Shown here piece by piece: positions 13,875-32,182 of a DNA stretch of 64,000 bases. The position numbers were made by a program, and so were the translations under genes. The notes beneath the pieces were generated by a model. The model did not search any database and was not told where the DNA came from. It was given only the letters and a program-made list of their open reading frames with translations. The stretch is from Mesorhizobium sp. RMAD-H1 (GTDB lineage: Bacteria; Pseudomonadota; Alphaproteobacteria; Rhizobiales; Rhizobiaceae), in assembly GCF_014191375.1 (NCBI RefSeq), contig NZ_JACHWN010000012.1, positions 1 through 64,000 of the forward strand. The letters are read 5' to 3'. Every line of letters begins with the position of its first letter. The first letter of the stretch is position 1.

Positions 13875-14437
13875 GCCTTCTCAGCCAAACCGAAGTCAAG
13901 AAATCTCGTGAATTCTTCACGCAGCGATCTTGGTAGCGGAAGTGAAAGATCGGTGCAATCTCCACATCTGAAAGAGGCAAAAGATAGATTTGCAGCGGTG
14001 TTAATGGTGGGGATTGCACCACGGGTTTAGATGAGGCGAAGACGAACCGATGGCGTCGCTTTTGTCCCTTCATCCGAATAAGAGGTAAAAAAATTTACAG
14101 CAGAATACAAGTAATCTATATGGATTGATACACAAAAAATATAATTAAATTCATTCATATTAATATATAATCCAACGTCTAAAATGTTGTCCGTTATCAG
14201 AGTTTACAAAAGCTAACGATCTTCTTAGCAATCGCTTGTGAACGCGTAGGCCGAATGACAGGATCGTCTGCGTCAAGAGTTTACTTCGCGGTCTGTCGGA
14301 AGAGCATTCGATAACACCTGGACGGCACCGCAAAAACACTCAAGACAAGTATTGAGCCGGGGTGCCTCCGATCAGCGGAGGTGCGCTTGAGGTATTTGTG
14401 TCCGGCCCTCCGGTCGGGAAGATGTCTGGAGAAGATG
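13875..14437. promoter_or_regulatory. AT-rich divergent regulatory region
   Basis: About 560 bases with no convincing gene. Bases 14080-14215 are strikingly AT-rich, with many TATAAT-like and poly-A/T runs, against a GC-rich background. Near the right side CCTCCG (14365-14370) and CGGAGG (14376-14381) form a 6-bp hairpin in the leader of the first Ig-like gene. Such AT-rich islands are typical sites for nucleoid-silencing proteins (Ros/MucR or H-NS-like) at horizontally acquired surface genes; that it works so here is inference. Confidence 0.5.
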
Positions 14438-16054
14438 ATGGCCCTGAGTACCATGAAATCGGAAACTATAGCCAAAGTAGCTCCGATTAACCAAGCTGTT
14501 AATGTCTATGTCAGTTTTAAAAGTGACGATAGATACGAGGACAAGGTCACTTTTTCGACTATTTACGATCAGCCGCAATATGAGGGAGGTCCGTATGTCA
14601 CATATCCCGGTGGGGGAAACGTAGGCACATTGAATGATGTCTACTCAGGTTTGGCGCAAGGCACGCTCAATGTGCCGGAGGGGCTGATGGGGTTCATCAC
14701 GATTAAGGTCCTCCGTAAAGCTGTTAAATCGGGAGTATCTGACGATACAACAACCATCGGCCCTATCGAATTTATCCCCTATGATTTCCTTGGGGATGAT
14801 GCCGGCAATTATGGTTCCGGCGTGCTTTCGTATCCGCTTGCCAGCAAAACGGTGCTGACGCCTGGAGATCTTTCCCAGGTCAGCGTTACTCTGACCTTTA
14901 ATAATCCGGATCCTGATCTACCCCCCGTCCCCATTGAAGGTGCGGAAGTACATTTCAGGGTCGTGACCGGTCTCGTCCCGGGGGCATGGGCCTATCCCAC
15001 GAATTCAGTTGGGACCCAAATGGACTACCCAGGAAAAGCTTATTGGACGACCACGACGAATGCTCAGGGCGTCGCGACCGCCTTTATTCAGTCAGGCCTC
15101 GTACCTGATCCTGTGACCGGTGATCCGACAGATCAGATACTATCAGGTATGGTGCGGCTACAGATAACAACTCTGGGGGGAAGCATCGATGACCGTTATA
15201 TCACGCTATATTATCCCAGCATGAGTGACGATGATCAAACTCCCGTTGTATCCAGCAGCCTCGTTATCGACAGCACCTATAACCTCCAGGGGAGCAGCGT
15301 TGTTGTTCTAGGCATGCCGGATGATATGCCGGACAAGTATAAGGGCGCAAATGTCAGGGGCTTCGTCTATCTGGAAACAGACTCAGGCAAAAATGGAGTA
15401 ATCAGCGAAATTGAAATCATGAAGCGGGTAGTAGACAACACGTACCTTAGTCCATCAGCAGCAAACTTCGAAAGAAATGATGGAGGCAACAATACACCTG
15501 TCATTTGGTATGTAGACTCTTTTGGAACCGCTGCTAAAAGCCAGAAGACAAGTACTCAGGTGTTTGGTGAATATTCTAACCGACCCGATATCACTTTACC
15601 CAACAACAATTGGATAGATCCGCCTTATCCCGCCAAACGTCCGGGGAAAAATCAGGGCGCGATAACCCCCGCCACCCTCGCGGATAATGGCAATCGCATG
15701 CGGGTGCAGATCGACGATCCGCTGCCGGATGAATATCTGGATGGAACCTATCAGCTTTACTACATCCTTTTTGCCAACAGCGGAGAGGATGGCAAGTTGG
15801 GAGAGGCGCTGTATTACTATCCCGATTATACGACTGGTGCGCCGGGGCTTCCTCTTCAGGCCGGTACGAATGGCTTTAACCAGTACAGGTCCATAATGCT
15901 GGATGGGAACAAGTTCATGGGATACGCGCCTCCCGGACAGTTTTATTGCGTATGTGCGGTCACTCAGGACAATACATCCGACCCAAGTACTTGGACATAT
16001 TGTAACTACGTGTTCGCCAAAAAGGATACGTGGTGGACCCTAGATACGGCGTAA
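14438..16054 (+). CDS. Beta-rich Ig-like protein 1, function unknown
   Basis: 538-539 aa, starting at one of two adjacent ATGs (14435 or 14438; GGAG at 14428-14431 favours 14438). No signal peptide. The sequence is rich in Thr, Ser, Gly, Asp, Pro and Tyr with short beta-strand-like segments. A bacterial Ig-like (invasin/Big-type) unit appears around VEVHFRVVTGLVPGAW-type text and TTTNAQGVATAFIQSGLV. The C-terminal part (DGTYQLYYILFANSGEDG) resembles a strand near the C-terminus of the next three proteins. First of four tandem related genes. Codon usage is less GC-rich than neighbours, suggesting transfer. No export route is visible. Confidence 0.75.
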   Translation: MALSTMKSETIAKVAPINQAVNVYVSFKSDDRYEDKVTFSTIYDQPQYEGGPYVTYPGGGNVGTLNDVYSGLAQGTLNVPEGLMGFITIKVLRKAVKSGVSDDTTTIGPIEFIPYDFLGDDAGNYGSGVLSYPLASKTVLTPGDLSQVSVTLTFNNPDPDLPPVPIEGAEVHFRVVTGLVPGAWAYPTNSVGTQMDYPGKAYWTTTTNAQGVATAFIQSGLVPDPVTGDPTDQILSGMVRLQITTLGGSIDDRYITLYYPSMSDDDQTPVVSSSLVIDSTYNLQGSSVVVLGMPDDMPDKYKGANVRGFVYLETDSGKNGVISEIEIMKRVVDNTYLSPSAANFERNDGGNNTPVIWYVDSFGTAAKSQKTSTQVFGEYSNRPDITLPNNNWIDPPYPAKRPGKNQGAITPATLADNGNRMRVQIDDPLPDEYLDGTYQLYYILFANSGEDGKLGEALYYYPDYTTGAPGLPLQAGTNGFNQYRSIMLDGNKFMGYAPPGQFYCVCAVTQDNTSDPSTWTYCNYVFAKKDTWWTLDTA

Positions 16055-16173: not shown

Positions 16174-17514
16174 ATGAGTAGGATTAGCTATATTGCGCAG
16201 CAGCCAGACGTTGCAAAGAACATTACGGTCGACAACATTGATAATCCTCCGATCGACTGTCTTATCCGCTTGACCGCCGTTGCAACCCAGGATGCAAAGC
16301 CGGGTGATACCGTCACTTGGAAAAAAGTACTCGGAGCCGGAGACGATACCATTTACTTCTATCCCGCCAGCGGTATTCCAAAGGACAAGAGGGCGGTCCA
16401 ACCTTCCCCTTATACGATGGATACGGGTGAAAGCACGCTGGGCGATAACCTGATGTCAAGCATCTACGTCGCTTCCGCCGATCCATGCATCGTTACCATC
16501 TCCGCTGAGTTGGGCACCGGTACCGGCCAGACCTATACAAGCGTCGTATTGTGCACTGTCGATCCGTCAAAGTCAGATAGCGATCTGCCCGCTATTGGCA
16601 TGTCTGATACATCCGTACCGATGGTAAAGGGCGGTCAGGAGGATGTACCGTCTCAGACTTATCCTTTTGACGCCTATGTCAACGTCGCAAAGGGCGTAAC
16701 AGCAAATTATGCCGTGTTGCTGGCGACGGGAGCTGATCCTGTGACGGGAAACCCTCCTGTTTTTCCGCCTTATCGTCTGCTGCAGCCCCTCGCCCAGATC
16801 GGCGGTGAAGCCGGCCAAACAGTTGAATTTGAGGTGCCCTATTCGGAATGTGAGGTCGGATCCAGCAGTAAAACCGATGTGGCATATTTTATCTGCGATG
16901 AGTTCGGGAGAACTTATCTCTCTCCAGTAGACGGGCCAGTAAAGGTAACAGGATATCCGGTTTCGCAGCCGAATCCAAATAACCCACAAACTCTTCCGGC
17001 TCCAATACAGATACAGCCGCAGACACAATATGGGGACGATTCATATAATTCCGCTTATCCAAATGGAACACTTCTGGATGAGCCGAATGATCCGATAACG
17101 AACAATGATTTCGATCAGAGTAAGAACGTTCTTTATTTTGCTATTCCAGACTATGGATATAAGCCGGAAGATCAGATCTTTGTCTATTACTATTTTAACG
17201 GCTGGCATGAAAAGCAGTCTCTCGGGGCGCATTTTGGTCCTCCGATCGCCAGCGGACCTTGGCCGGCGACCAGGTTTACCAACGGGTTTGGAAACACCGC
17301 GAACAAGGGCAACAGCGATAACTTCCTGAAGGTCAACGTCCCGAAATCCAAGGTTCTTGATTATGAAGTCGAGCCCGGCGTCGATAATGGTTTCGGTTAC
17401 CTCTGGGTTCAGTACAAGGTCTTGACCGGGGCTCCTAGTGATAAAAATAAAGACGCGAATACTTCGGAGGTTTACTACTCCATGCCGCTTTTTACCCACT
17501 GCCTTATTGATTGA
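16174..17514 (+). CDS. Beta-rich Ig-like protein 2, function unknown
   Basis: 446 aa starting MSRISYIAQQPDVAKN, with AGGAG at 16162-16166 eight bases upstream. No signal peptide. An Ig-like first domain is suggested by LTAVATQDAKPGDTVTWKKV, and the C-terminal part has alternating Tyr-rich strands (IFVYYYFNGW, LWVQYKVLTG, SEVYYSMPLF). Composition (Asp, Pro, Thr, Tyr, Gly, few Lys clusters) is like gene 1. Not identifiable to a named family. It probably shares the transcript with the genes on both sides; the gap to the next gene is about 200 bases. Confidence 0.75.
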   Translation: MSRISYIAQQPDVAKNITVDNIDNPPIDCLIRLTAVATQDAKPGDTVTWKKVLGAGDDTIYFYPASGIPKDKRAVQPSPYTMDTGESTLGDNLMSSIYVASADPCIVTISAELGTGTGQTYTSVVLCTVDPSKSDSDLPAIGMSDTSVPMVKGGQEDVPSQTYPFDAYVNVAKGVTANYAVLLATGADPVTGNPPVFPPYRLLQPLAQIGGEAGQTVEFEVPYSECEVGSSSKTDVAYFICDEFGRTYLSPVDGPVKVTGYPVSQPNPNNPQTLPAPIQIQPQTQYGDDSYNSAYPNGTLLDEPNDPITNNDFDQSKNVLYFAIPDYGYKPEDQIFVYYYFNGWHEKQSLGAHFGPPIASGPWPATRFTNGFGNTANKGNSDNFLKVNVPKSKVLDYEVEPGVDNGFGYLWVQYKVLTGAPSDKNKDANTSEVYYSMPLFTHCLID

Positions 17515-17711: not shown

Positions 17712-20700
17712 ATGACAAAAGATCCTACCCAGACTCCGCAGGGACAGCACGCTAAGGAGCAGTCGAAAGCCGCCGGAAAGGATAACAAGAGAGCGCCCAT
17801 CAATGTAGATGCAGGCGATGGCGAGATCACCATCACATCTGATTCCGGCGATACTCTTACACTTTACTCGGAGCACGTACTCACGGCCACATATACGGGC
17901 TCGGACGAGCGCGTGAAAACCATCGGATGGACTGCACAGCAGGTAGCCCCTCCAGGTCAGGCCGATTGGAGCGCACCGTCACAAATTCTGGTTGTCTTTG
18001 ATCCGCCGCGCTCGGAGTTGATCAACGGTCAGGCCAAAACAAACATATTGGTTTACGGCGCCTTCACCCAAGCAGGCGATGAGGCGAAAGGGATTGATGT
18101 TTACGCGCGCGTCCTAGAGATGGATGTCGATGTTCAGCGCGGCATGAAAAACTTCTCCTGCAACGTGCCCGCAGTGCCACCGGGTAACATTCTGGCCTTG
18201 GATTCGGTCGAAGGCGATCCGGTAACGACGGGAGACGCCTTCCATATGTTCGTCGCGACCTGCAGTACATATGACGGAAAATCTCCGATATGGCCTCCGC
18301 AATGGTATCCGTTAGTCGACTGGTCTGCCGAAATCGTTTCGCCCAATCCCCCTCCGGACGCTCAGATCCAGCTCATGAGTTTTTCCATGACGGACGATTC
18401 GACGACGCTCTACAATATTCCCCCTTCGACCGGATCCGGCCCGTCCTATGCCCTGAACGGCATCCGGGTAACAAGCTCCGAGCCAGTCCTGGTCGAGGTA
18501 ACGGCGTTAATAACGGAGCCCGACCACTACTCGCGCAAAATCCGGGTCCAATTCCAGAAGGATGCATCACTCTCTTCTCAGGGGGTCATGGAACTCTATC
18601 CGCTGGATCCCGAGCCGTGGCTCGCGGACGGTAACACTCACACTGTCCAACTCAGCTACGACAGGCCCGGCGGTGTGCCGGAGGGAACTTCGGTATTCTG
18701 GTGGCCTTTCTTAATAGACATACTTGGCGTTCAGAACGCCTACACATTTACCAACTCGGATCAGAGCACCAGCAATTCCGTCAGCCAGTGGAGATCCCCC
18801 CCTTACTTCGGTTATTGGGACTTTACCGGAATAACCATCGCCAGAAGTCTCAACTCGCAAACGGGAGCCTATGATTATGGCAAACTGCCGGTATTCTACA
18901 AATATTCTGATCAGGATGCGATCGTAGTTACACCCGATCCGCAGGAAAGGACCGGACAAAAGCTCTATGCGCCGCGCACGCTCAACGCCACTTACAGGGG
19001 CGATAAGACCTTCTCGCAGGTGACGTGGTCGGTGGATCTCGAAGAAAATCCAGAATACATGATTACCTTCGAGCCCAATCCCTCGACTGTAACCAGCGAA
19101 AGCGGCACTCTGACCACGACCACGCAGATGACGGTCAACGGACCGAACAAGCCGGTCAACGTCACAGCCTATGCGGAATCGGCAGACGGGGATTTCGTCG
19201 TGGGTCGATCCTATCTTCTCACCTTCCACCCGGTGGAGCAGGCGCCGCAGGGCAATGAAATCGTGATTGTCTCGCTGGATGGTGACACGCTCAAGGAGCG
19301 CGATGACACCGGGCCGCAGTGGCACATGCTGAAGGCGATTTACAGGCAGTTGGACGGCACACCGATTGCCGGAGCGTCTCTCACCTGGAGAGCCAGCGAT
19401 AACAGCATCACAATTGCGCAGCCGACGGGTGGCAAGACGAACTCGGATGGGGTCATGACCAATGTGATCCAGACCACGCGAACCGATCAGTTCGATTTTA
19501 CAGTGACGGTATCGGCGGACAATACCAGCGACACCCTTACGATCCCGCTCACCTTCCAGCCAACAGTGGACGCTCTGCCCGGACAGCAGTTGGTGACTAT
19601 CACGTTATCGGGAGGTGCCGATAAGCTAGAGTTTGATAAACCCTATCCGGTGGTCGCCAATTTCCAGACGAGTAGCTTGCCACAACTGGTCACCTGGACA
19701 GCTTTTCCAGCGGATCGGCTGACCTTCACCCAAGGTGTGACGCAGATTTTGGACGGAGCGATGACAAACTATGTCAAAGCCTCGCCGGGACCAGACATTC
19801 CGGTTGCCCTGATTTCCGCGACGTCTTTCCACTCGCCCAGCACTTATATAACCGTTTCCAGCCCGGTTGGCATTTATGATCACTCCGAGCCTGATCTCGT
19901 CTTGAGTTTCGAGGGCGGGATCTCCGACACGATTGTGATCAAGGCAGATTCTCCGCCGCTTTATCTGTTCAATACGGATCAGCTGATTGACGGCACGTAT
20001 ACGGGGGACAAGCAGTTCAACGAGGTGGTGTGGTCGGTGGACCCGGAGGAGAACCCGGATTATGCGATCACGTTTGATCCCAATCCGTCCCCGGCGACTG
20101 CTGAGGACGGAGGGCGGACGACGCAGACCAAGATGACGGTCTACGGCAAGAACCAGCCGACCACGGTCACGGTCTATGCCTATTCAGCGGACTATGTCCG
20201 CTCGGTGGGTCAGGATTTCGTCAAGGGGGTGCAGTCCCTCGATTTCCTTCCGGCGTCCAAGCCGCCACAGACGGGGTGGATCGAGCTTGTCTCGCTGGAA
20301 GGCAACCCGCTGGCCGAGGGCAGCGGCGCGCCGCTGATCCAGGCGACCTACCGGCTGGGCAATATGGGCGGCTTTGAGCCGCTCACCTGGGAGATCGTCG
20401 ATGATTCGAGCGGCGGTACCGTCTCGCTGCTGACCTTGCACGGCGAAACCGACGTCAACGGCGTCATGATCAACAGCGTGACGACCACCAGCACCGGGCC
20501 GGTGACCTTCACCGTGAAGGTGACTTCGGACGATTATGGCGACGTCGGCACGCTGGACCTTGCCTTCCAGCCGAAGGAGGATGTGCCGCAGCTGCCCGGG
20601 CAGGAGATCATGACGATCCATTCCCCGGATGGCACCACGCTGACGATCGGGGACACGCACCCGTTGTCGGTGGACTATTCCGGTTCCGAGGTCACCTGGA

Positions 20701-21986
20701 TCGGCTTCCCGTCCGACCGGCTGGTCTTCGGCCAGACGGAGAGCAAGACGACCACCGTGCAGGTGCTCGACGGGCCCGACATTCCGGACGCGGCGGTCAT
20801 GACGGTGCACTTCAACAAGGATATCGGCGCCTATGACTACGGCTATCTCGCGCTCTCCTTCAAGACCAAGCAGACACAGGGCGTGGTCGGGGTCACGATC
20901 GACAAGGCCTATGCCCTGAACACCGATACCTTTGTCGACCCGACGGTGCAGAGCCAGGTGATCGCATGTCAATTGCAATTGCAGGCCGACAACAATCAGA
21001 ACCAGCAGATCCTGTTGCCGACCGATCCGGGCACGATCGTCGCCTCATTCGTCAACGCGCAGGGCAATGATCTGCCGAAAAAGACGGATGGCACCTACTA
21101 CATCAACACCGGCAATGACGGAAAGGCGACGTTCTTCGTCGGGTCGGAGAACCCCTCGACCTTCATCCTCAACACGCAATGGCAGAATAAGGACCAGCCT
21201 GCGTCCGCCACGCTTACCGTGGCGACCAATGCCCCGCCCGGAACCTGGCCGGCGCCGGTCGTGCCGGACCTGGGCGGGGGGACGACGCTGCAGATCCCGA
21301 GCGGCTGTCCCGCACCGACCTTCCAGGTCACGATCCCGAACGGCGCACCGGCGGGTAACATGGCGCTGCTGCTCAACAGCAGGATCGTCTATCGCGGACT
21401 GGTCGATCCTGCCAAGAACCCTGTCGTGGAGGTGGCCTATTGCGCCCTCGATCTCTCCGGGACCAATGTTCTGGTCTACCTGCCGGAGTCATCCGTCAAC
21501 CTGTCGCTGCCCTGTTCCTTCACGGTGGACACGACGAACGGCAATCCGCAGACGGGGCCTTGCCCCAATCTCGAGCGGAAGCTGTTCGCGCCAGATGGCC
21601 TGGATGCGTCACAGACAATTGGGGCGGGGGACATCCTGCCGCCTGGTCTCAGCGTCTATATCGAGCCCTATGAGAATATGGAGGCCGGCGACGATGTGAT
21701 CACCGCCTTCTTCTACCTGCAGGGAACCGATGTTCTCTCGCAGGAGACGGGAGGAGTCGCTCTGTCGATCAACAACATCGTGGTGTCGGAGCCCTATCCC
21801 GTCACGAACGACAGCTTCAAGGACGGGTCGATCCCGATGACCCTGCCGCAATGGGCGGCCGCCGGCTATGCCAACGGCCAGTTGCAGGTCGACTATATGG
21901 TCGTCGGCAAGAAGAACGGAACGCGATGGTCCGAAATATCGCCGACCGTCCCGCTCAATACAACCATACCCTTCCCGGCAGCCTGA
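17712..21986 (+). CDS. Large multi-domain Ig-like protein 3 with internal repeats
   Basis: 1424 aa, ATG 17712 after a GAGGAGACAGAC ribosome site. The N-terminus (MTKDPTQTPQGQHAKEQSK) is hydrophilic and has no signal peptide. At least three Ig-like units recur: one near residue 50 (LYSEHVLTATYTGSDE), one near 416 (LYAPRTLNATYRGDK, then VTWSVDLEENPEYMITF) and one near 748 (LYLFNTDQLIDGTYTGDK, then VVWSVDPEENPDYAITF). The last two repeat with a period of about 332 residues. Residues 747-1407 are encoded by the 1984-bp repeat shared with the next gene. The C-terminal part holds four Cys (CPAP, YCALD, PCSF, PCPN) that might pair outside the cell. Suggests a surface or matrix structural protein; the export route is unknown. 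Confidence 0.78.
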   Translation: MTKDPTQTPQGQHAKEQSKAAGKDNKRAPINVDAGDGEITITSDSGDTLTLYSEHVLTATYTGSDERVKTIGWTAQQVAPPGQADWSAPSQILVVFDPPRSELINGQAKTNILVYGAFTQAGDEAKGIDVYARVLEMDVDVQRGMKNFSCNVPAVPPGNILALDSVEGDPVTTGDAFHMFVATCSTYDGKSPIWPPQWYPLVDWSAEIVSPNPPPDAQIQLMSFSMTDDSTTLYNIPPSTGSGPSYALNGIRVTSSEPVLVEVTALITEPDHYSRKIRVQFQKDASLSSQGVMELYPLDPEPWLADGNTHTVQLSYDRPGGVPEGTSVFWWPFLIDILGVQNAYTFTNSDQSTSNSVSQWRSPPYFGYWDFTGITIARSLNSQTGAYDYGKLPVFYKYSDQDAIVVTPDPQERTGQKLYAPRTLNATYRGDKTFSQVTWSVDLEENPEYMITFEPNPSTVTSESGTLTTTTQMTVNGPNKPVNVTAYAESADGDFVVGRSYLLTFHPVEQAPQGNEIVIVSLDGDTLKERDDTGPQWHMLKAIYRQLDGTPIAGASLTWRASDNSITIAQPTGGKTNSDGVMTNVIQTTRTDQFDFTVTVSADNTSDTLTIPLTFQPTVDALPGQQLVTITLSGGADKLEFDKPYPVVANFQTSSLPQLVTWTAFPADRLTFTQGVTQILDGAMTNYVKASPGPDIPVALISATSFHSPSTYITVSSPVGIYDHSEPDLVLSFEGGISDTIVIKADSPPLYLFNTDQLIDGTYTGDKQFNEVVWSVDPEENPDYAITFDPNPSPATAEDGGRTTQTKMTVYGKNQPTTVTVYAYSADYVRSVGQDFVKGVQSLDFLPASKPPQTGWIELVSLEGNPLAEGSGAPLIQATYRLGNMGGFEPLTWEIVDDSSGGTVSLLTLHGETDVNGVMINSVTTTSTGPVTFTVKVTSDDYGDVGTLDLAFQPKEDVPQLPGQEIMTIHSPDGTTLTIGDTHPLSVDYSGSEVTWIGFPSDRLVFGQTESKTTTVQVLDGPDIPDAAVMTVHFNKDIGAYDYGYLALSFKTKQTQGVVGVTIDKAYALNTDTFVDPTVQSQVIACQLQLQADNNQNQQILLPTDPGTIVASFVNAQGNDLPKKTDGTYYINTGNDGKATFFVGSENPSTFILNTQWQNKDQPASATLTVATNAPPGTWPAPVVPDLGGGTTLQIPSGCPAPTFQVTIPNGAPAGNMALLLNSRIVYRGLVDPAKNPVVEVAYCALDLSGTNVLVYLPESSVNLSLPCSFTVDTTNGNPQTGPCPNLERKLFAPDGLDASQTIGAGDILPPGLSVYIEPYENMEAGDDVITAFFYLQGTDVLSQETGGVALSINNIVVSEPYPVTNDSFKDGSIPMTLPQWAAAGYANGQLQVDYMVVGKKNGTRWSEISPTVPLNTTIPFPAA
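19951..21934 (+). repeat. 1984-bp direct repeat, copy 1 (3' half of Ig-like gene 3)
   Basis: This segment recurs at 23598-25581 with a constant offset of 3647 bases. By eye I find one difference: A at 20475 against C at 24122, changing Ser to Arg. Sequence diverges sharply just before 19951 and after 21934. It encodes about 661 residues including an Ig-like unit and the shared C-terminal domain. Confidence 0.95.
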
Positions 21987-22010
21987 CATCTTCCGCCACA
22001 CTCACCGAAA

Positions 22011-22032
22011 GAGCCCGGCAAATGCCGGGCTC
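22011..22032 (+). other. Terminator-like hairpin without a T-run, after Ig-like gene 3
   Basis: GAGCCCGGC (22011-22019) and GCCGGGCTC (22024-22032) form a 9-bp stem with an AAAT loop. The same hairpin follows gene 4 but there with a T-run. Lacking it here, transcription should continue into gene 4; the hairpin may protect the upstream message. Confidence 0.7.
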
Positions 22033-22090
22033 CGCAAGACGGAAGACAATGACCCGGCGCGAAACGCCCTAGATTTTTGAGGAGGCAGAC

Positions 22091-25000
22091 ATGACAAAGA
22101 ATACTAACATCGCCACGACGTCTTCGAATAAACAGATGCGCAAAGATGCATATAGGATCAAACGGAGGCAAGGTGTCCGCGACACGAACGGCGCCCTGAC
22201 CGTCGTCTATCCGCCGCAAGACCTCACCCTTCCGATCAATTCCCCCGTAGAGGTATGGGTCTATTTCAGCGGTTACGGTACCGGTCTGGGCGCCCAACCC
22301 ATCACCTTCACGCCCACAAATGCCAATATCACCGTGGTTTCCGCTGACACACACACGGACAATGATGGCTTCGCCCATGCGATTATCAAGGCCGCAGGCG
22401 ACGGGTCGCTGACGGTGGAGAGCCCGAAAGGGGATTCGAGCCCACCACCGGTTACATGGCCCTTGCACCCCGATCTCTCGGCGGGAGGACCACAGGGAGT
22501 TGGCGGTGCCTGGGCGCCATATCAAGACCAGGTAATAAGGAACACATGGAATCTGGCGGTTGCTGAGTATGCCGAGGATTTTGCTGTTTCGCCTCGTCAA
22601 AATATCATGACATTCCAGATGAACGATTCTGGCGAAAGCACTGTCTTTTTTAAAGACAAGCAGATGATATCCGTTTCCTATTTTGCCTACAATTTAATAA
22701 AGACTAACCTTCCTGCAAATTCTACCGTTCCACCAGCTACATTCTCCGTGCCGAATGTCATTGCGGGGCAGGATGAAAGCGCGGGCTGGGATGATGACGC
22801 CGCGGGCTGGGGGGATTCTGGTCCTCCCACTGTAATTGAGGCCGAAGGACCCATGGGAACAGGTACCATCACCGTGGGACCTGATCCCACAGTTGAAGAC
22901 AATGTAGTCCCAACCACCGTGACATTCAAGGCGGTTTTCCTTAAGGAAAACGGAGATCCTTGGAAGGATAAAAATCTGAACTGGACCACTTTTTACAATT
23001 GGTTTAGCGGTTCGATAACTTATAATGTCAATACGACGACAGATGAGTATGGAGCGTCGTCCAATGATTTTAGCATTGGCGTTTACGACAATCCGGGCAG
23101 CTTAGTAATTATCGTGAATGGCACTGAAGACGATGGCGGCCTTGTGCAAGGGGCTTGGGTCGGAATGCACTACGATCCCGCCAATCCTCCTTTCTGGAAC
23201 GGAAAGGTGGCGGTCACGCCGCCCGCCGGTGATCTGACGCTCGGGCAGGGATACGCGGTCACGGTAACCGCTCTGCAAGGAATTGGTCTCTTAAACCATG
23301 ATCCCACCGGACCATGGGCTGATACCACGATCCGCTGGTACGCCGACGACGCCAGCAAGGACCGGATCGTCTTCTCGCTGCCCGGCGATCCGCTCGGTAC
23401 GGTGCCGGGCGAACGCTTCCCGACGGTAACGGATGCTCAGGGCAACACCTCCATCGTGGTCTCCGCGCTCGGGACGGAGTCGCTTACCGCGATTATTTAC
23501 GCGGAAGTGGCAAGCCCGATTACAGGGGAAGCCTACACGGGTTCGGCAAGCATCTCGTTCGGGACGGTCTCAGACACGATCACGATCACGCCGGACGCTC
23601 CGCCGCTTTATCTGTTCAATACGGATCAGCTGATTGACGGCACGTATACGGGGGACAAGCAGTTCAACGAGGTGGTGTGGTCGGTGGACCCGGAGGAGAA
23701 CCCGGATTATGCGATCACGTTTGATCCCAATCCGTCCCCGGCGACTGCTGAGGACGGAGGGCGGACGACGCAGACCAAGATGACGGTCTACGGCAAGAAC
23801 CAGCCGACCACGGTCACGGTCTATGCCTATTCAGCGGACTATGTCCGCTCGGTGGGTCAGGATTTCGTCAAGGGGGTGCAGTCCCTCGATTTCCTTCCGG
23901 CGTCCAAGCCGCCACAGACGGGGTGGATCGAGCTTGTCTCGCTGGAAGGCAACCCGCTGGCCGAGGGCAGCGGCGCGCCGCTGATCCAGGCGACCTACCG
24001 GCTGGGCAATATGGGCGGCTTTGAGCCGCTCACCTGGGAGATCGTCGATGATTCGAGCGGCGGTACCGTCTCGCTGCTGACCTTGCACGGCGAAACCGAC
24101 GTCAACGGCGTCATGATCAACCGCGTGACGACCACCAGCACCGGGCCGGTGACCTTCACCGTGAAGGTGACTTCGGACGATTATGGCGACGTCGGCACGC
24201 TGGACCTTGCCTTCCAGCCGAAGGAGGATGTGCCGCAGCTGCCCGGGCAGGAGATCATGACGATCCATTCCCCGGATGGCACCACGCTGACGATCGGGGA
24301 CACGCACCCGTTGTCGGTGGACTATTCCGGTTCCGAGGTCACCTGGATCGGCTTCCCGTCCGACCGGCTGGTCTTCGGCCAGACGGAGAGCAAGACGACC
24401 ACCGTGCAGGTGCTCGACGGGCCCGACATTCCGGACGCGGCGGTCATGACGGTGCACTTCAACAAGGATATCGGCGCCTATGACTACGGCTATCTCGCGC
24501 TCTCCTTCAAGACCAAGCAGACACAGGGCGTGGTCGGGGTCACGATCGACAAGGCCTATGCCCTGAACACCGATACCTTTGTCGACCCGACGGTGCAGAG
24601 CCAGGTGATCGCATGTCAATTGCAATTGCAGGCCGACAACAATCAGAACCAGCAGATCCTGTTGCCGACCGATCCGGGCACGATCGTCGCCTCATTCGTC
24701 AACGCGCAGGGCAATGATCTGCCGAAAAAGACGGATGGCACCTACTACATCAACACCGGCAATGACGGAAAGGCGACGTTCTTCGTCGGGTCGGAGAACC
24801 CCTCGACCTTCATCCTCAACACGCAATGGCAGAATAAGGACCAGCCTGCGTCCGCCACGCTTACCGTGGCGACCAATGCCCCGCCCGGAACCTGGCCGGC
24901 GCCGGTCGTGCCGGACCTGGGCGGGGGGACGACGCTGCAGATCCCGAGCGGCTGTCCCGCACCGACCTTCCAGGTCACGATCCCGAACGGCGCACCGGCG

Positions 25001-25633
25001 GGTAACATGGCGCTGCTGCTCAACAGCAGGATCGTCTATCGCGGACTGGTCGATCCTGCCAAGAACCCTGTCGTGGAGGTGGCCTATTGCGCCCTCGATC
25101 TCTCCGGGACCAATGTTCTGGTCTACCTGCCGGAGTCATCCGTCAACCTGTCGCTGCCCTGTTCCTTCACGGTGGACACGACGAACGGCAATCCGCAGAC
25201 GGGGCCTTGCCCCAATCTCGAGCGGAAGCTGTTCGCGCCAGATGGCCTGGATGCGTCACAGACAATTGGGGCGGGGGACATCCTGCCGCCTGGTCTCAGC
25301 GTCTATATCGAGCCCTATGAGAATATGGAGGCCGGCGACGATGTGATCACCGCCTTCTTCTACCTGCAGGGAACCGATGTTCTCTCGCAGGAGACGGGAG
25401 GAGTCGCTCTGTCGATCAACAACATCGTGGTGTCGGAGCCCTATCCCGTCACGAACGACAGCTTCAAGGACGGGTCGATCCCGATGACCCTGCCGCAATG
25501 GGCGGCCGCCGGCTATGCCAACGGCCAGTTGCAGGTCGACTATATGGTCGTCGGCAAGAAGAACGGAACGCGATGGTCCGAGGTATCGCCCATCGTCCCC
25601 TTCAATACAACCATACCTTTCCCGTCGGCCTGA
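22091..25633 (+). CDS. Large Ig-like protein 4 sharing its C-terminal half with protein 3
   Basis: 1180 aa, ATG 22091 after GAGGAGGCAGAC. The 20 bases around the start match those of gene 3, so the translation start region is also duplicated. No signal peptide. Residues 1-502 are unique, with Ig-like strands (PVEVWVYFSGYGTG, TVTFKAVFLKENGDPW, YAVTVTALQGIG); residues 503-1164 are nearly identical to protein 3. A conserved C-terminal module with a swapped N-terminal part is the pattern of a modular adhesin or assembled matrix protein. Terminated by the strong hairpin at 25655. Function not known. Confidence 0.78.
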   Translation: MTKNTNIATTSSNKQMRKDAYRIKRRQGVRDTNGALTVVYPPQDLTLPINSPVEVWVYFSGYGTGLGAQPITFTPTNANITVVSADTHTDNDGFAHAIIKAAGDGSLTVESPKGDSSPPPVTWPLHPDLSAGGPQGVGGAWAPYQDQVIRNTWNLAVAEYAEDFAVSPRQNIMTFQMNDSGESTVFFKDKQMISVSYFAYNLIKTNLPANSTVPPATFSVPNVIAGQDESAGWDDDAAGWGDSGPPTVIEAEGPMGTGTITVGPDPTVEDNVVPTTVTFKAVFLKENGDPWKDKNLNWTTFYNWFSGSITYNVNTTTDEYGASSNDFSIGVYDNPGSLVIIVNGTEDDGGLVQGAWVGMHYDPANPPFWNGKVAVTPPAGDLTLGQGYAVTVTALQGIGLLNHDPTGPWADTTIRWYADDASKDRIVFSLPGDPLGTVPGERFPTVTDAQGNTSIVVSALGTESLTAIIYAEVASPITGEAYTGSASISFGTVSDTITITPDAPPLYLFNTDQLIDGTYTGDKQFNEVVWSVDPEENPDYAITFDPNPSPATAEDGGRTTQTKMTVYGKNQPTTVTVYAYSADYVRSVGQDFVKGVQSLDFLPASKPPQTGWIELVSLEGNPLAEGSGAPLIQATYRLGNMGGFEPLTWEIVDDSSGGTVSLLTLHGETDVNGVMINRVTTTSTGPVTFTVKVTSDDYGDVGTLDLAFQPKEDVPQLPGQEIMTIHSPDGTTLTIGDTHPLSVDYSGSEVTWIGFPSDRLVFGQTESKTTTVQVLDGPDIPDAAVMTVHFNKDIGAYDYGYLALSFKTKQTQGVVGVTIDKAYALNTDTFVDPTVQSQVIACQLQLQADNNQNQQILLPTDPGTIVASFVNAQGNDLPKKTDGTYYINTGNDGKATFFVGSENPSTFILNTQWQNKDQPASATLTVATNAPPGTWPAPVVPDLGGGTTLQIPSGCPAPTFQVTIPNGAPAGNMALLLNSRIVYRGLVDPAKNPVVEVAYCALDLSGTNVLVYLPESSVNLSLPCSFTVDTTNGNPQTGPCPNLERKLFAPDGLDASQTIGAGDILPPGLSVYIEPYENMEAGDDVITAFFYLQGTDVLSQETGGVALSINNIVVSEPYPVTNDSFKDGSIPMTLPQWAAAGYANGQLQVDYMVVGKKNGTRWSEVSPIVPFNTTIPFPSA
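23598..25581 (+). repeat. 1984-bp direct repeat, copy 2 (3' half of Ig-like gene 4)
   Basis: Second copy of 19951-21934, same orientation and same reading frame relative to its gene. The near-perfect identity over 2 kb, including synonymous positions, points to recent duplication or ongoing gene conversion. Confidence 0.95.
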
Positions 25634-25654: not shown

Positions 25655-25685
25655 AAAGAGCCCGGCAAACGCCGGGCTCTTTTTT
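25655..25685 (+). terminator. Rho-independent terminator of the Ig-like gene cluster
   Basis: A 12-bp stem, AAAGAGCCCGGC (25655-25666) with GCCGGGCTCTTT (25671-25682), AAAC loop, and a T-run through 25685. It ends the four-gene unit. About 280 AT-rich bases follow before the autotransporter start. Confidence 0.92.
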
Positions 25686-25966
25686 GCGGAAATGCCAAAT
25701 AAAGCTGGGCGATGAAGTAGTTAGGATTCGAAACAATTGCAGATGTGCAGGACGCATGTCTATGTAACTGAATTATATTGGAAAACAGGATAATATTGAA
25801 TTACATAAAAACCCGAATGTATTTTCATATTATGCGAGAATAATAGAATATTAATGTTATTAACATAGGAATCACATCTATTTCGAATGTGAAAGGCGTT
25901 CCCTTTGAAGCATTAAGGTGGCACCGGGGCTTGGGAAGACGCTGCGGCAAGCGAAGGAATTGCGGG

Positions 25967-28900
25967 ATGACAGGTTTCCAGGCAGAAAAAATCATTGGTC
26001 GACATGTTCGCCGGCGCACGGGGTGCGGCGATTTATTGACGACAGTTTCAGTTTCGGCTCTTCTTGCGGTTGCAATGACGTCTGCCCCTGCTGCAGCGCA
26101 AACCTGGAAAGGCGGGACCGCGGGCGCCCCCTCGGACTGGAACACCGGAACCAACTGGGTCGGCAACGTTGTGCCGAATGGCGGCGTCGTCATAATCGAT
26201 CAGGCACCCGAGACCATCCTTGGCAATACTCCTGACGGTAACACCGGTAACACCACGGTGGGCGAAAACGGTACAGGGACATTGACCATTAAGAACGGCG
26301 TCGCCCTGAAATCCACGGGATACCTGATCGTGGGCCACAACGCTGGTTCCAATGGCGCGGTGACCATCACAGGCCAGGGCTCGAGTTATACAACGAGTGC
26401 TACAGTCCAAGGTGTTGGCGCCGTTGCCATCGGCTACTGGGATACTGGGAAGATGACGGTCACCGACAACGCCACGGTCACAACGACCAGCAGCGATCCA
26501 AACGGCGACATGACTGTCGGCGGGTTTGCCAGGGGAGACTTATACATCACAAATGGCGGTACCTATACCACCAACTCCGATGCCCATATAGGCTGGGGCA
26601 CCAACGGCGTAGGAACCGTAACTGTCGGCGGGGCAGGGCAGGGAGGTACCAAGGCGCAATGGACGATGCGGACGCTGGACGTCGGGCTGGGAACTCAAGG
26701 CACACTCACCATTAATGCCGATGGCAAGGTGACGACCAATGGCGGCATACAGCTCAACAAAAACGGGACAATCAACGTTACAGGCGGCACTTTAGCGACC
26801 TCGTCACTTGCTTCTGGGCCCAGCGGCGCAGGACAGGTCAATTTCACGGGCGGTACATTGCAGGCCATCGGCGACAACAGCTCAGGGTTTATCACCGGCC
26901 TCGGCACGAAACTCAATATAAACGGGGGGCTGACGGGCGGCCTGACAGTCGATACCGACACATATACAGTGGGCACGGATGCGAGTTCCTGGTTTTCCGG
27001 CGCGGGCGGTCTGACCAAGACCGGTACGGGCACGCTCATCCTCGCTGGCATAAACTCCTATACCGGCGGCACGACGATTTCCCAAGGCACATTGCAGGTC
27101 GGCAATGGCAGCACGGGTGCGATTACGGGCGATGTCGTCAATAACGCCACCCTTGCCTTCAATACCAGCTCTACCACGTTCTCCGGCCTGATCTCCGGCA
27201 CGGGCAAAGTCGTCCAGATGGGTACGAAGCTGACCCTGTCCAATGCCAATAACAGCTATTCCGGCGGAACCGTCCTCCAGGCGGGTGTTCTGTCGGTTTC
27301 TGCCGATTGCAATCTCGGTTGCAATCTCGGTGTTGCGACGGGAGATCTGACCTTCACCGGCGGCACGCTGGAAAACACGCAGGTGATGACGCTCGGCGCA
27401 GGACGCACGGTGAAGATGACCGGCGCTGGCACCCTCAAGGCGGATGCCGACCTGACCGTGGCCGGCAGTATCACCGACTCCGGCACGCTGACCAAGGACA
27501 ATACCGGCAAACTGATCCTCACCGGGGACAACAGTTTGTATTCAGGCGACTTGTTGATCAAGGGAGGAGAACTGCATGTTGGCAATGGCGGCTCATCGGG
27601 CACGCTGGGAGGCAACAGTAGCAGTGTCGAATTGGTCGGTGCGAGCAACAAGCTCATTTTCAACCGGTCGGGAGATTTGATTTACAGGGGCGACATCACC
27701 GGTGATGGCTCGGTGACGGTGCAGGGCGGGATTACACTGACCCTAACCAATGATAACAGTTACAAGGGAGCCACGACCGTTGCCGCAGGCAGCACGCTGG
27801 TCGTCAATGGCGATCAAACCCAGGTGACGAACGATACGACCGTGGATGGCACTCTGCGTGGCGGCGGTACCATCGGCGGCAATGTTATCGTGAACAGCGG
27901 CGGCAATCTCACGGTGCAGGACGAGGCCAGCGGCGTAAGCAAGCTGACCATCCTGAAGGATCTCACGTTGAACCCGGGCTCGACGCTGAACTATGTCTAC
28001 GACGTGTCGCCGGTGACTGGCCAGGGCAGTGCATTGATGGTCGATGTCACTGGCCCCATCACAATCGGCACCAATGTAACATTGAATGTGGGCGGCACGG
28101 CAGCGTCGACGCTCGATCTCGGCGTCTATGGCCTGCTGGAAACGCAAGACACCGCAACGGGTATAACGGGGACATTCGACACGACGAACATCCCCTCCGG
28201 CTTCACGGTGCGATACGGGACGCAGGAAGTCGACATGGTCAAGACCGCGCCGCCGCCTCCTTCCGGATTGTTCAACCACTGGGATGGAACGCAGACAACT
28301 GCCAACGGCCGTGTCGATGGCGGCTCGGGCATCTGGCAGGCGAGCGCCGGCGGCCTGACCAACTGGACGACATCCGACGGCAGCTCGAACGGCGCCTACA
28401 CCGATAAGAGCTTTGCCATTTTCGAGGGCCAGCCCGGCACCGTCACGGTGGATGACAGCAAGGGCGCGATCAATGCGGCCGGCATGCAATTCGCTGTGGA
28501 CGGCTATACACTGACAGGCGGCGTCGTCACGCTGTGGCCAACCCCCAGCAGCCCTATGGGCAGCAATCAGAGCCTCATCCGCGTCGGCAAGAACACATTG
28601 GCGAGCACCGGTATGACGGCGGTGATCGGGTCGCAGCTGGTCGATGCACCAGGCCATTCCATCCAATTGGTGAAGGGCGATCTCGGCACCCTGGTGTTGA
28701 CCAATGCCGCCAATAGCTATTCCGGCGGCACGTTGATCAAAGGGGGTGTTTTGTCGGTGTCCGCCGACGGCAATCTCGGCGCATCGGCCGGCAGCCTGAC
28801 GCTCACCGGTGGCACCTTGCAGGTCACGGGCGGATATGCAGCGACCTCGCGCGACATTACGGTCGGCACAGGCGGCGGGGGTATCGACGTCGCCAATGCG

Positions 28901-31900
28901 TCCTTCACGATCTCGAAGGCGATCAGCGGTGCGGGCACACTCACCAAATCAGGCGCCGGCACGTTGGTGCTGGCCAATGCGGGCAATGCCGCAAGCTATG
29001 CGGGCGCCATCGTCATCGCGGACGGCACGCTATCGATCGCCTCAGGGGACAATCTCGGCTCGGGCGGGCTCACTTTCGACACGGGCGCTCAGGGCGGCGG
29101 GGCCAGTGCCACGCTGCTCGTAACTTCCAACACCAACTACGCTGATCCCGTGAAATTCAACACGGATGGTACGATCGAAACCGCTCCATCGATCAGCGTA
29201 ACACTGGGGGGCGAACTCTCGGGGGCAGGACGCCTCATCAAGGACGGCGCCGGCAAGCTGATACTTTCGCATGACGTGAATACTTACTCCGGCGGGACCG
29301 TGCTCAATGAGGGCACGCTGGCCGTGGGTTTTGACTGCAATCTCGGTTGTACCGGCGGAGCACTGGGCGACCTCACCTTCAATGGCGGTACGTTGCAGAG
29401 CACGAGGACAATCACCTCTTCCCGCAAAGTCGTGATCGATGCCGGCGGCGGCACCTTCCTTACCGATCCAAACGGCGATCTGACGTTTGGAGGGCAGGTG
29501 ACCGGGAGCGGCCAGCTTGTCAAGGACGGTGGCGGCACTTTGACATTGACGGGCAGCAGCGGCGGTTTTGCCGGCTCGACCACCGTTTCGGACGGGACAC
29601 TCTATGTGGATGGCCCGCTCGGCGGTACCATGAACGTCGCCTCGGGCGGGACGCTCGGCGGCACGGGCACCGTCGGTTCGACGATCATCGCAGATGGCGG
29701 CACGCTTCTCGGGCGGCAGGGCGAGCGACTGACCATCGGCGGCGATCTGGAGCTCTCGAGTACTTCCAACGTAAATGTCTCGCTTGGCGCGCCGGAGACG
29801 ACAACGGACCCCGGTCTTTTTCACGTGACAGGTGATCTGACGCTGGACGGCGTGCTTAAGATCACGGATCAAGGCGGCTTCAGACCCGGCCTTTACCGGC
29901 TGTTCGACTATGACGGCGCTCTCACCGACAATGGGCTCGATCTGGGTATGGTGCCCGGGAACATCGATCCCGATGATCTGGAGGTGGACACGAGCACCGA
30001 CCATGAAGTCAATCTGATCAGCAGTAACGGCGTCGTCTTGAACTACTGGAAGGGCGGTAATGGGACATGGAACCACGCCAACAATAACTGGACCAATGGG
30101 ACACCAGGGACGACTGACGGCAAATGGGCGGATGACAATTTCGCCATCTTCCGGAATCCTCCCGCCGGCACTGTAACGGTCGATGACAGCGGTGGTCCGA
30201 TTCTGGTCTCCGGCATGCAATTCGCGATCGACGGCTATCGCATCGAGGGCGACGCGATCAGGCTTGGCGCCGCCGAAACCATCATCCGCACCGGACTTGG
30301 GGGGCGCGCGGCCGGGACGACAGCGACCATCGCCTCGGAACTGGCCGGGTCGGGCAAGCTCGTGAAGACTGAAACCGGGACGCTGATCCTGACGGGGAAA
30401 AACAGCTACACCGGCGGCACGGAAATCGATGAAGGCACATTGCAGCTCGGCGAAGGCGGTACTTCGGGCAGCGTCGAGGGAGCGATCACCAATGATGGCA
30501 CACTCGCCTTCAACCGCTCTGATGATGTTGTTTTCAAGAATGCCGTCACCGGTACCGGCGGCTTTGACCAGAGGGGCACGGGCAAGACGGTGCTCGGCGG
30601 TGATTATTCCGGCCTGACCGGCATCCATAAAGTCAACAAGGGCATTCTCGAGGTCAATACCAGGCTCGGGGGCGTGATCGATGTGCTCGGCGGACAATTG
30701 CAGGGCACCGGCATCGTAGGCTCGGCGCTGAACGGCGCCGGCGGTACGATCGCGCCTGGCAATTCGATCGGCACGCTGACTGTCGATGGCGATTACATCG
30801 GGCAGGGCGGCACGCTTGCGATCGAGGCCGTGCTCGGTGGTGACAACTCGCCGACAGACTTGTTTGTCGTCACAGGGAGCACCTCGGGTAAAACCAATGT
30901 GCAGGTGACGAATCTCGACGGCAGTGGCGCGCAGACCAATAGCGGCATCAGGATTGTCGAGGTGAACGGCGCCTCCAACGGCACCTTCACGCTTGCCGGC
31001 GATTACACCTATAAGGGCGACCAGGCGGTGGTCGGTGGTGCCTATGCCTATCGCCTCTATCGGGGTGGGGTCGCCGATCCAAGCGACGGCGACTGGTACC
31101 TGCGCTCGGCCCTGATCGATCAGTGCCAGGAGGAAGGATGCCAGCCCCACTACCAGCCGGGCGTCCCGATCTACGAGGCCTATGCGCATGTGCTGCAGGA
31201 GCTGAACGCGGTAGGCACGCTGCGTGAGCGCGTCGGCAACCGCTACTGGAGCGGCGCGGCCAATCCGGTTCTCGCCGAGGGCGACGGGCCGGGCATGGCC
31301 GAAGCCGTGCCTTCGCCGGATGCCGGCGCGGCGGTCGACACCGCCTCCACCGTCTGGGGCCGGATCGAGGGGGCGCATGGCCGCTTCGAGCCGAAATATT
31401 CCACCAGCGCCACGCAATACGACATTGATATGGTCAAGCTGCAGGCCGGGCTCGACGGCATGCTTTACGAGACCGAAATGGGCCGGCTGATCGGCGGGCT
31501 CACCGTGCATTACGGCCATGCCAAGGCCGATATCGGCGCAGTGCATGGCGACGGCTCGATCAATGTCGACGGCTACGGCTTCGGCGGCACCTTGACCTTC
31601 TACGGCGAGGACGGGCTTTATCTCGATGCCCAGGCGCAGGTGAGCTGGTACGAGAATGACCTGAATTCCGAGACCGCGCACAGGACGCTCGCCAACCGCA
31701 ATGACGGCTTCGGCTATGCGCTTTCGCTGGAAGTGGGCAAGCGCTTTGCGCTCACACCCGTCTGGACCATCACCCCGCAGGCGCAGCTCATCTGGTCGCA
31801 GGTGGATTTCGACGGCTTCACCGATCCCTTCGGGGCCAGCGTGGTGCATGACAGGAGCGACAGCTTCAGGGGCCGGCTCGGTATCTCGGCCGATTACGGC

Positions 31901-32182
31901 ATGGCCTGGCGCGACGATCAGGGCCGGCTGACACGCGCCAATGTCTACGCCATCGCCAATCTCCATCACGAGTTCCAGGAAGGCAGCAAGATCGAGGTGT
32001 CCGGGGTGAGCTTTGCCAGCGACAACGACCCGACCTGGGGCGGCATCGGCGCCGGCGGCACCTATAGCTGGGCTGACGGCCGCTATGCGCTCTATGGCGA
32101 CGTCTCGCTCGACACAAGCCTCGAGAACTTCGCCGACAGCTACAAGGTCAGCGGCAATCTGGCAATGAAGGTCAGGTGGTGA
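25967..32182 (+). CDS. Giant classical autotransporter (type Va) with beta-helix passenger
   Basis: 2071 aa. ATG 25967 is preferred (GAAGGA about eight bases upstream); ATG 25889 would add 26 residues. A long signal peptide with a basic N-region ends near residue 44 (APAAA-Q). The passenger carries many autotransporter-associated beta-strand repeats of the form G-L-TK-GTGTL-L-G-NSYTGGT-I--GTL-VG. Three similar modules begin with Trp-rich motifs: [15 protein letters not shown] near the N-terminus, then HWDGT and [16 protein letters not shown], the last two each with a [15 protein letters not shown] tail. The passenger junction ([16 protein letters not shown] to DWYLRS) precedes a 12-strand barrel (about 1790-2071) ending in Trp. 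Role: surface adhesin or biofilm protein (inference). Confidence 0.92.

Follow-up and report, generated by a model that had tools for sequence, protein, structure and literature searches.

We propose that two neighbouring genes of Mesorhizobium sp. RMAD-H1, here called P3 and P4, each of which encodes a large Ig-like protein, are older tandem paralogues that have recently undergone gene conversion, and that such conversion is a recurrent habit in the genus; we give this reading a probability of about 0.75. The window, by which we mean the whole stretch of DNA that was analysed, comprises 64,000 nt of contig NZ_JACHWN010000012.1 (assembly GCF_014191375.1; 5,140,609 bases in 21 contigs), and its data represent one isolate and one assembly. 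P3 (17712-21986, + strand; 1424 aa) is delimited as an open reading frame, with a Big_1 match of 39.9 bits against a cut-off of 34.9 and with a place in a tree of N-terminal parts, and P4 (22091-25633, + strand; 1180 aa) as an open reading frame with a Big_1 score of 24.6 bits, which lies under that cut-off.

The two genes have in common a near-identical tract of 1984 bp, located at 19951-21934 in P3 and at 23598-25581 in P4, on the + strand and in the same frame in both. Compared base by base at an offset of 3647, the copies differ at one position out of 1984, namely 20475 versus 24122, where AGC stands against CGC and Ser against Arg; mismatches resume immediately beyond the tract, at 19950 on its left and 21935 on its right. 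A preliminary description of this DNA had reported just such a direct repeat with a single base difference, in frame in both genes, and the comparison and the reading frames bear it out, as they do the reported duplication of the start regions (GAGGAGACAGACATGACAAA and GAGGAGGCAGACATGACAAA; 35 nt at 86%). It had also called the N-terminal parts unrelated, which holds at the sensitivity of a BLASTP search of residues 1-730 of P3 against 1-487 of P4, where no match was found at 1e-3. A DNA search of the RMAD-H1 genome with the tract returned the two window copies and one 203-bp match at 66% within P3; no orphan tract fragments were seen in this genome, nor did searches detect silent cassettes, whether of the tract or of P4, elsewhere in it. 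The third match represents an older, diverged copy of the same domain pair in the P3 front half (18849-19832, + strand), 41% identical at the amino acid level to residues 474-791 of P4.

Both edges of the tract lie within sequence that is diverged and yet homologous. On the left, 9 of 30 bases differ between 19921-19950 and 23568-23597 (+ strand), and on the right, where the sequence is still coding, 9 of 52 differ between 21935-21986 and 25582-25633 (+ strand), compared with 1 of 1984 in the tract itself (Fisher p 1e-16 and 2e-14, respectively). Farther leftward, the nucleotide identity of P3 and P4 is 32-53% per 50-base window, which is not alignable. Beyond both stop codons, sequence alignment reveals a 22-nt hairpin with one change between its two versions, at 22011-22032 after P3 (+ strand; predicted fold -21.4 kcal/mol) and at 25658-25679 after P4 (+ strand; -23.5 kcal/mol). 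The final 52 coding bases and the hairpin of the 3'-UTR are common to both genes but have diverged, and the alignment thus shows that the P3/P4 homology predates the identical tract. The 3' ends were homologous and had drifted apart by the time identity arose in the inner tract, which is the trace expected of gene conversion or of some other, equivalent form of homologous exchange.

As a separate observation on the hairpins, only that of P4 is followed by six Ts (TTTTTT), the P3 version being without a T-run; on these folds, transcription may pass P3 into P4 and end after P4. Neither hairpin is listed by the terminator scan, which counts the Ts that follow the longest stem, and both the promoter-like sites (9 versus 7.4 in shuffles, sd 3.2) and the terminator-like sites (14 versus 10.9, sd 3.2) of the window occur at chance level.

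By its genome, RMAD-H1 is a congener of Paramesorhizobium deserti. When 61 genomes (its own and 60 others) were searched with the repeat half, six matched, all of this one genus (its own and five congeners), as against 0 of 31 genomes from the family's other genera and 0 of 24 from the order's other families; a profile of the last 365 aa matched one of 385 genomes of the class, that of RMAD-H1 itself. Among contigs of named genomes, scanning with the repeat half yielded 8 matches to the pattern, none of them from a relative, and a scan with the alignment of the downstream autotransporter gave one locus (L045), which belongs to Paramesorhizobium deserti A-3-E, the congener designated G002. No relative was found in viral contigs and plasmids, and a literature search retrieved no paper on these Ig-like proteins among the entries listed.

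Two of the five congeners, G003 and G004, carry pairs of Ig-like genes with diverged 5' parts and with 3' parts that are 97-99% identical, over lengths that are lower bounds, as these assemblies are without the middle or the end of the repeat. In G004, the genes on contigs C34 and C54 have 9 mismatches in 844 bp (98.9% identity), beyond which their identity falls to about 50%, so that a sharp left edge within older homology is found here as well as in P3/P4, where both edges are sharp; their front parts are 34% identical in amino acids, and both contigs end within the family at the same base, with an exact overlap of 127 bp that is shared by construction. In G003, the 66-bp ends shared exactly at three junctions are likewise shared by construction: C53 and C57, whose front parts are of different types, end at the same 3' base with 66 bp exact, 4 mismatches in the last 352 bp and 85% identity over 1125 bp, the starts of C53 and C54 coincide to the base, with 66 bp exact and a 3'-end stretch of 415 bp that is 97.3% identical, and the first 66 bp of C57 equal the sequence at position 350 of C54. 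Exact contig-end overlaps are a mark of unresolved repeats in short-read graphs, and the sharing of ends among C53, C54 and C57 implies at least two, probably three, copies of the gene end in G003.

The remaining congeners are less regular. The genes on C43 and C21 of G005 both run off their contigs within the family, and they align over 508 bp at 84% in a patchy manner (74%-100% per 50-base window), with 65% amino acid identity over the best 225 residues and without an exact contig-end overlap, which weakly suggests a patchier version of the same pattern. G002 has a single Ig-like gene, the N- and C-parts of which are out of frame between two copies of a 61-bp repeat, and this frame change sits at the domain boundary that matches the left edge of the window tract; the junction could reflect either the collapse of a pair or a genuine frameshift. 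The repeat in question (L032, 9506-9684) is direct and perfect, its copies 118 bp apart with the change of reading frame between them. G001 shows a single open frame of 493 aa with partial similarity, on a contig that is unbroken there. The preliminary description had suggested looking in relatives for independently diverged copies, and what the relatives display speaks for conversion, clearly so in G003 and G004 but only weakly so for G005.

The trees separate the front parts from the back. In a tree of front parts (9 rows, 750 columns), P3 groups with the G003 genes on C53 and C36 at 100/100, its front half (aa 1-730) being of a type in common with two G003 genes; the C57 gene of G003 falls outside that clade, beside the rows of G004, G002 and G005 on poorly supported branches. 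One of the six inner branches of this tree is starred, and P4, the front half of which (aa 1-487) has two weak local matches only among the congeners, occupies a very long branch. In a second tree (11 rows, 372 columns), built from the pair of domains ahead of the linker, P3 groups with P4 (100/100) and G003 C53 with G003 C57 (100/99). When the N-terminal clade of P3, C53 and C36 was enforced on the domain-pair data, it was rejected both with all 3 rows (p-AU 2.9e-5) and in a 2-row version (p-AU 7.2e-4). This incongruence implies that front and back parts have had different histories; as far as these alignments tell, N-terminal types cross species and C-termini cluster by genome. Paralogues within a genome are thus closer than orthologues between species, with 1 mismatch in 1984 bp for P3 and P4 as against 43% amino acid identity for the best congener match of the repeat half. 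Because this match of the same half reaches only 43%, selection on the DNA letters themselves is unlikely. The earlier suggestion that conversion keeps the neighbouring C-terminal halves alike is supported both by tract edges that lie in older homology and by relatives in which 3' parts are alike per genome and 5' types cross species.

The identity could perceivably have arisen otherwise. If a copy of the 3' half had recently been placed in tandem and joined in frame to a different front half, with no conversion involved, a single event would account for the near-identity as well as for the tandem order, the common strand and the one mismatch; such an event, however, predicts identity as far as its junction and none past it, whereas the right edge falls within diverged homology that continues through the coding bases into the shared hairpin, and the pairs of G003 and G004 would each require a separate event. 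We consider a fresh partial duplication of this kind unlikely, and a gene-conversion tract would fit the sequence better. A different concern is that the assembly might have written one consensus into two genes or duplicated the stretch. The assemblies of relatives do break at this repeat, and 0 matches to 16S rRNA genes were obtained in the RMAD-H1 genome by a search that was positive in 9 of 14 control genomes, so that repeats may be lost, collapsed, masked or poorly handled in it. Yet the flanks are distinct on both sides of both copies, one base distinguishes the copies, the window is without Ns, a near-identical, though shorter, tuf pair is also resolved within one contig, and the independent assemblies of G003 and G004 indicate repeats in the same gene family, all of which renders an artefact very improbable.

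The preliminary description had further seen in this arrangement a design for modular N-terminal variation. A constant back joined to differing front halves in several species is what one would expect of a programmed system of antigenic or phase variation, in which dedicated machinery reassorts front halves onto a constant half; but a Pfam scan of 14 ORFs of the window found no recombinase, searches of the genome turned up no silent cassettes for either the tract or P4, and with a single isolate no switching was seen. We give such a system very little credence, and the notion of a design, which implies one, lacks support in that form. A related proposal, that recombination between the repeats would produce a deletion, is correct as to the geometry (3647 bp), but no new combination would result, since both C-terminal halves are already the same.

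Returning to gene conversion, we envisage that P3 and P4 had existed as tandem paralogues for some time when a recent non-reciprocal homologous exchange, presumably dependent on RecA, overwrote 1984 bp of one gene with those of the other. A break or gap in one copy would have been repaired from the neighbouring copy, and the two halves would thereby have become identical again; a shared half of 2 kb would be long enough for such repair, and the front halves would be too dissimilar to join in. If this was repeated in the genus, C-terminal halves would evolve in concert in each genome and front halves would keep their identities across species. The shared half may serve a common step, be it secretion, anchoring or assembly, with differing binding functions left to the front halves, in which case a common C-terminal half might be selected for. 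Had the event ended in a crossover instead, 3647 bp would be deleted and a P3-like gene with a P4 tail would be left, the P4 front half being lost. Import from another strain would leave the same pattern as an exchange between P3 and P4.

As to what these genes encode, the Ig-like domain type and the gene neighbourhood lead us to infer that P3 and P4 are probably large extracellular proteins. The cut-off of the Pfam family Big_1 (PF02369) is exceeded in P3, as given above, and in G003 C53 (36.8), and G004 C34 (31.7) and C54 (28.8) stay under the cut-off, as does P4; Pfam does not list it for G005 C43, G005 C21, G003 C36, G003 C57 or the N-part of G002. Pfam finds no Big_2 (PF02368) in P3 or P4, and NCBIfam and PHROGs assign no family to either protein or to the products of their companion genes A and B. 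Inverse autotransporters of the intimin/invasin type place an N-terminal beta-barrel ahead of their Ig domains, whereas neither Pfam nor NCBIfam detects a β-barrel family in P3 or P4. Leptospiral Lig proteins carry an N-terminal lipoprotein signal; in contrast, judged by hydropathy only, the first 100 residues of P3 and P4 contain no hydrophobic segment (highest 19-residue means 0.57 and 0.62). Sequence searches of the PDB gave 0 matches with a profile and 4 weak ones with another search (E >= 0.24). Modelling of the last 365 aa gave a structure of low confidence (pLDDT 54.5, pTM 0.44), whose top Foldseek matches, to adhesin and other Ig-type chains at TM values <= 0.2, were set aside. The Ig-like gene on C21 of G005 (L057, 2-1717) begins with a front domain of about 130 aa that weakly matches DUF7910 (E 0.041).

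Upstream of P3 lie gene A (14381-16054, + strand; 557 aa from a GTG start), which is without a family match, and gene B (16174-17514, + strand; 446 aa), which is 25% identical to an equally placed gene of G002; ORFs sized like A and B, though of weak similarity, precede the Ig-like genes in G002, G003, G004 and G005. A C-terminal domain common to companion and Ig-like proteins is at most hinted at by E values of 0.003 and 0.007, obtained among 27 proteins, which would not be significant for a large database. Downstream of P4, an autotransporter with a barrel and PATR repeats is encoded at 25889-32182 (+ strand), and its homologue adjoins Ig-like genes in G002 and on C36 of G003. On the latter contig (L027, 3659-10625), four tandem paralogues of about 530-560 aa, 40-54% identical, are found directly upstream of the Ig-like gene, and two of the four, b and c, have a 509-bp stretch in common at 79%.

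The closest precedent is the LigA/LigB pair of Leptospira, likewise tandem multi-Ig-domain genes with about 1.9 kb near-identical and the remainder unique to each, for which a review infers gene conversion aided by the tandem order (PMC7821625). The two cases are mirror images, Lig sharing the 5' half (-266 to +1890) with C-terminal parts that differ (PMC7821625), and P3/P4 sharing the 3' half; the Lig proteins are described there as Big_2, as opposed to the Big_1 matches here, and P3 and P4 reside in a soil alphaproteobacterium. The Porphyromonas gingivalis genes rgpA, kgp and hagA resemble P3/P4 in joining differing N-terminal domains (proteases or none) to identical adhesin repeats, which also broke short-read assemblies, as in the congeners here, but the gingipains, likened to P3/P4 by description, differ in their known type IX secretion, conserved CTD and catalytic front domains (PMC5266723). 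The rhs genes of Enterobacteriaceae likewise combine a long shared region, within which homologous recombination takes place, with a non-homologous end; there, however, variation concerns a short tip at the C-terminus, which incoming tips displace, and tips that have become dissociated lie downstream (PMC2935791). In P3/P4 it is the N-terminal half that varies, and no orphan fragments of the tract were seen in the genome. RMAD-H1 itself offers a further near-identical pair in its tuf genes (contig C2, 221338-222510 and 239156-240328), which are 99.83% identical over 1178 bp (2 mismatches). Gene conversion keeps such pairs of tuf genes uniform; they differ from P3/P4 in that the whole gene is homogenised, the copies lie 17 kb apart and the function is a housekeeping one.

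Taken together, we argue that P3 and P4 provide a clean natural example in which conversion is limited to one half of each modular protein; its edges are legible to the base, and a like habit can be traced in sister species. They also advise caution with short-read assemblies of the genus, which lose or join these Ig-like genes. They would further allow a test of whether homogenisation of the C-terminal half is favoured by selection, the half being co-adapted to a partner in export or anchoring, or simply follows from the tandem arrangement. Tentatively, and with considerable doubt on our side, one may go further and imagine a constant/variable surface-protein system across the genus, in which each Paramesorhizobium-type genome would hold several large Ig-like proteins with a C-terminal half repeatedly re-homogenised by conversion, so that any new front half arriving in the cluster would automatically gain the resident C-terminal half, matched to the export or anchoring partner of the strain.
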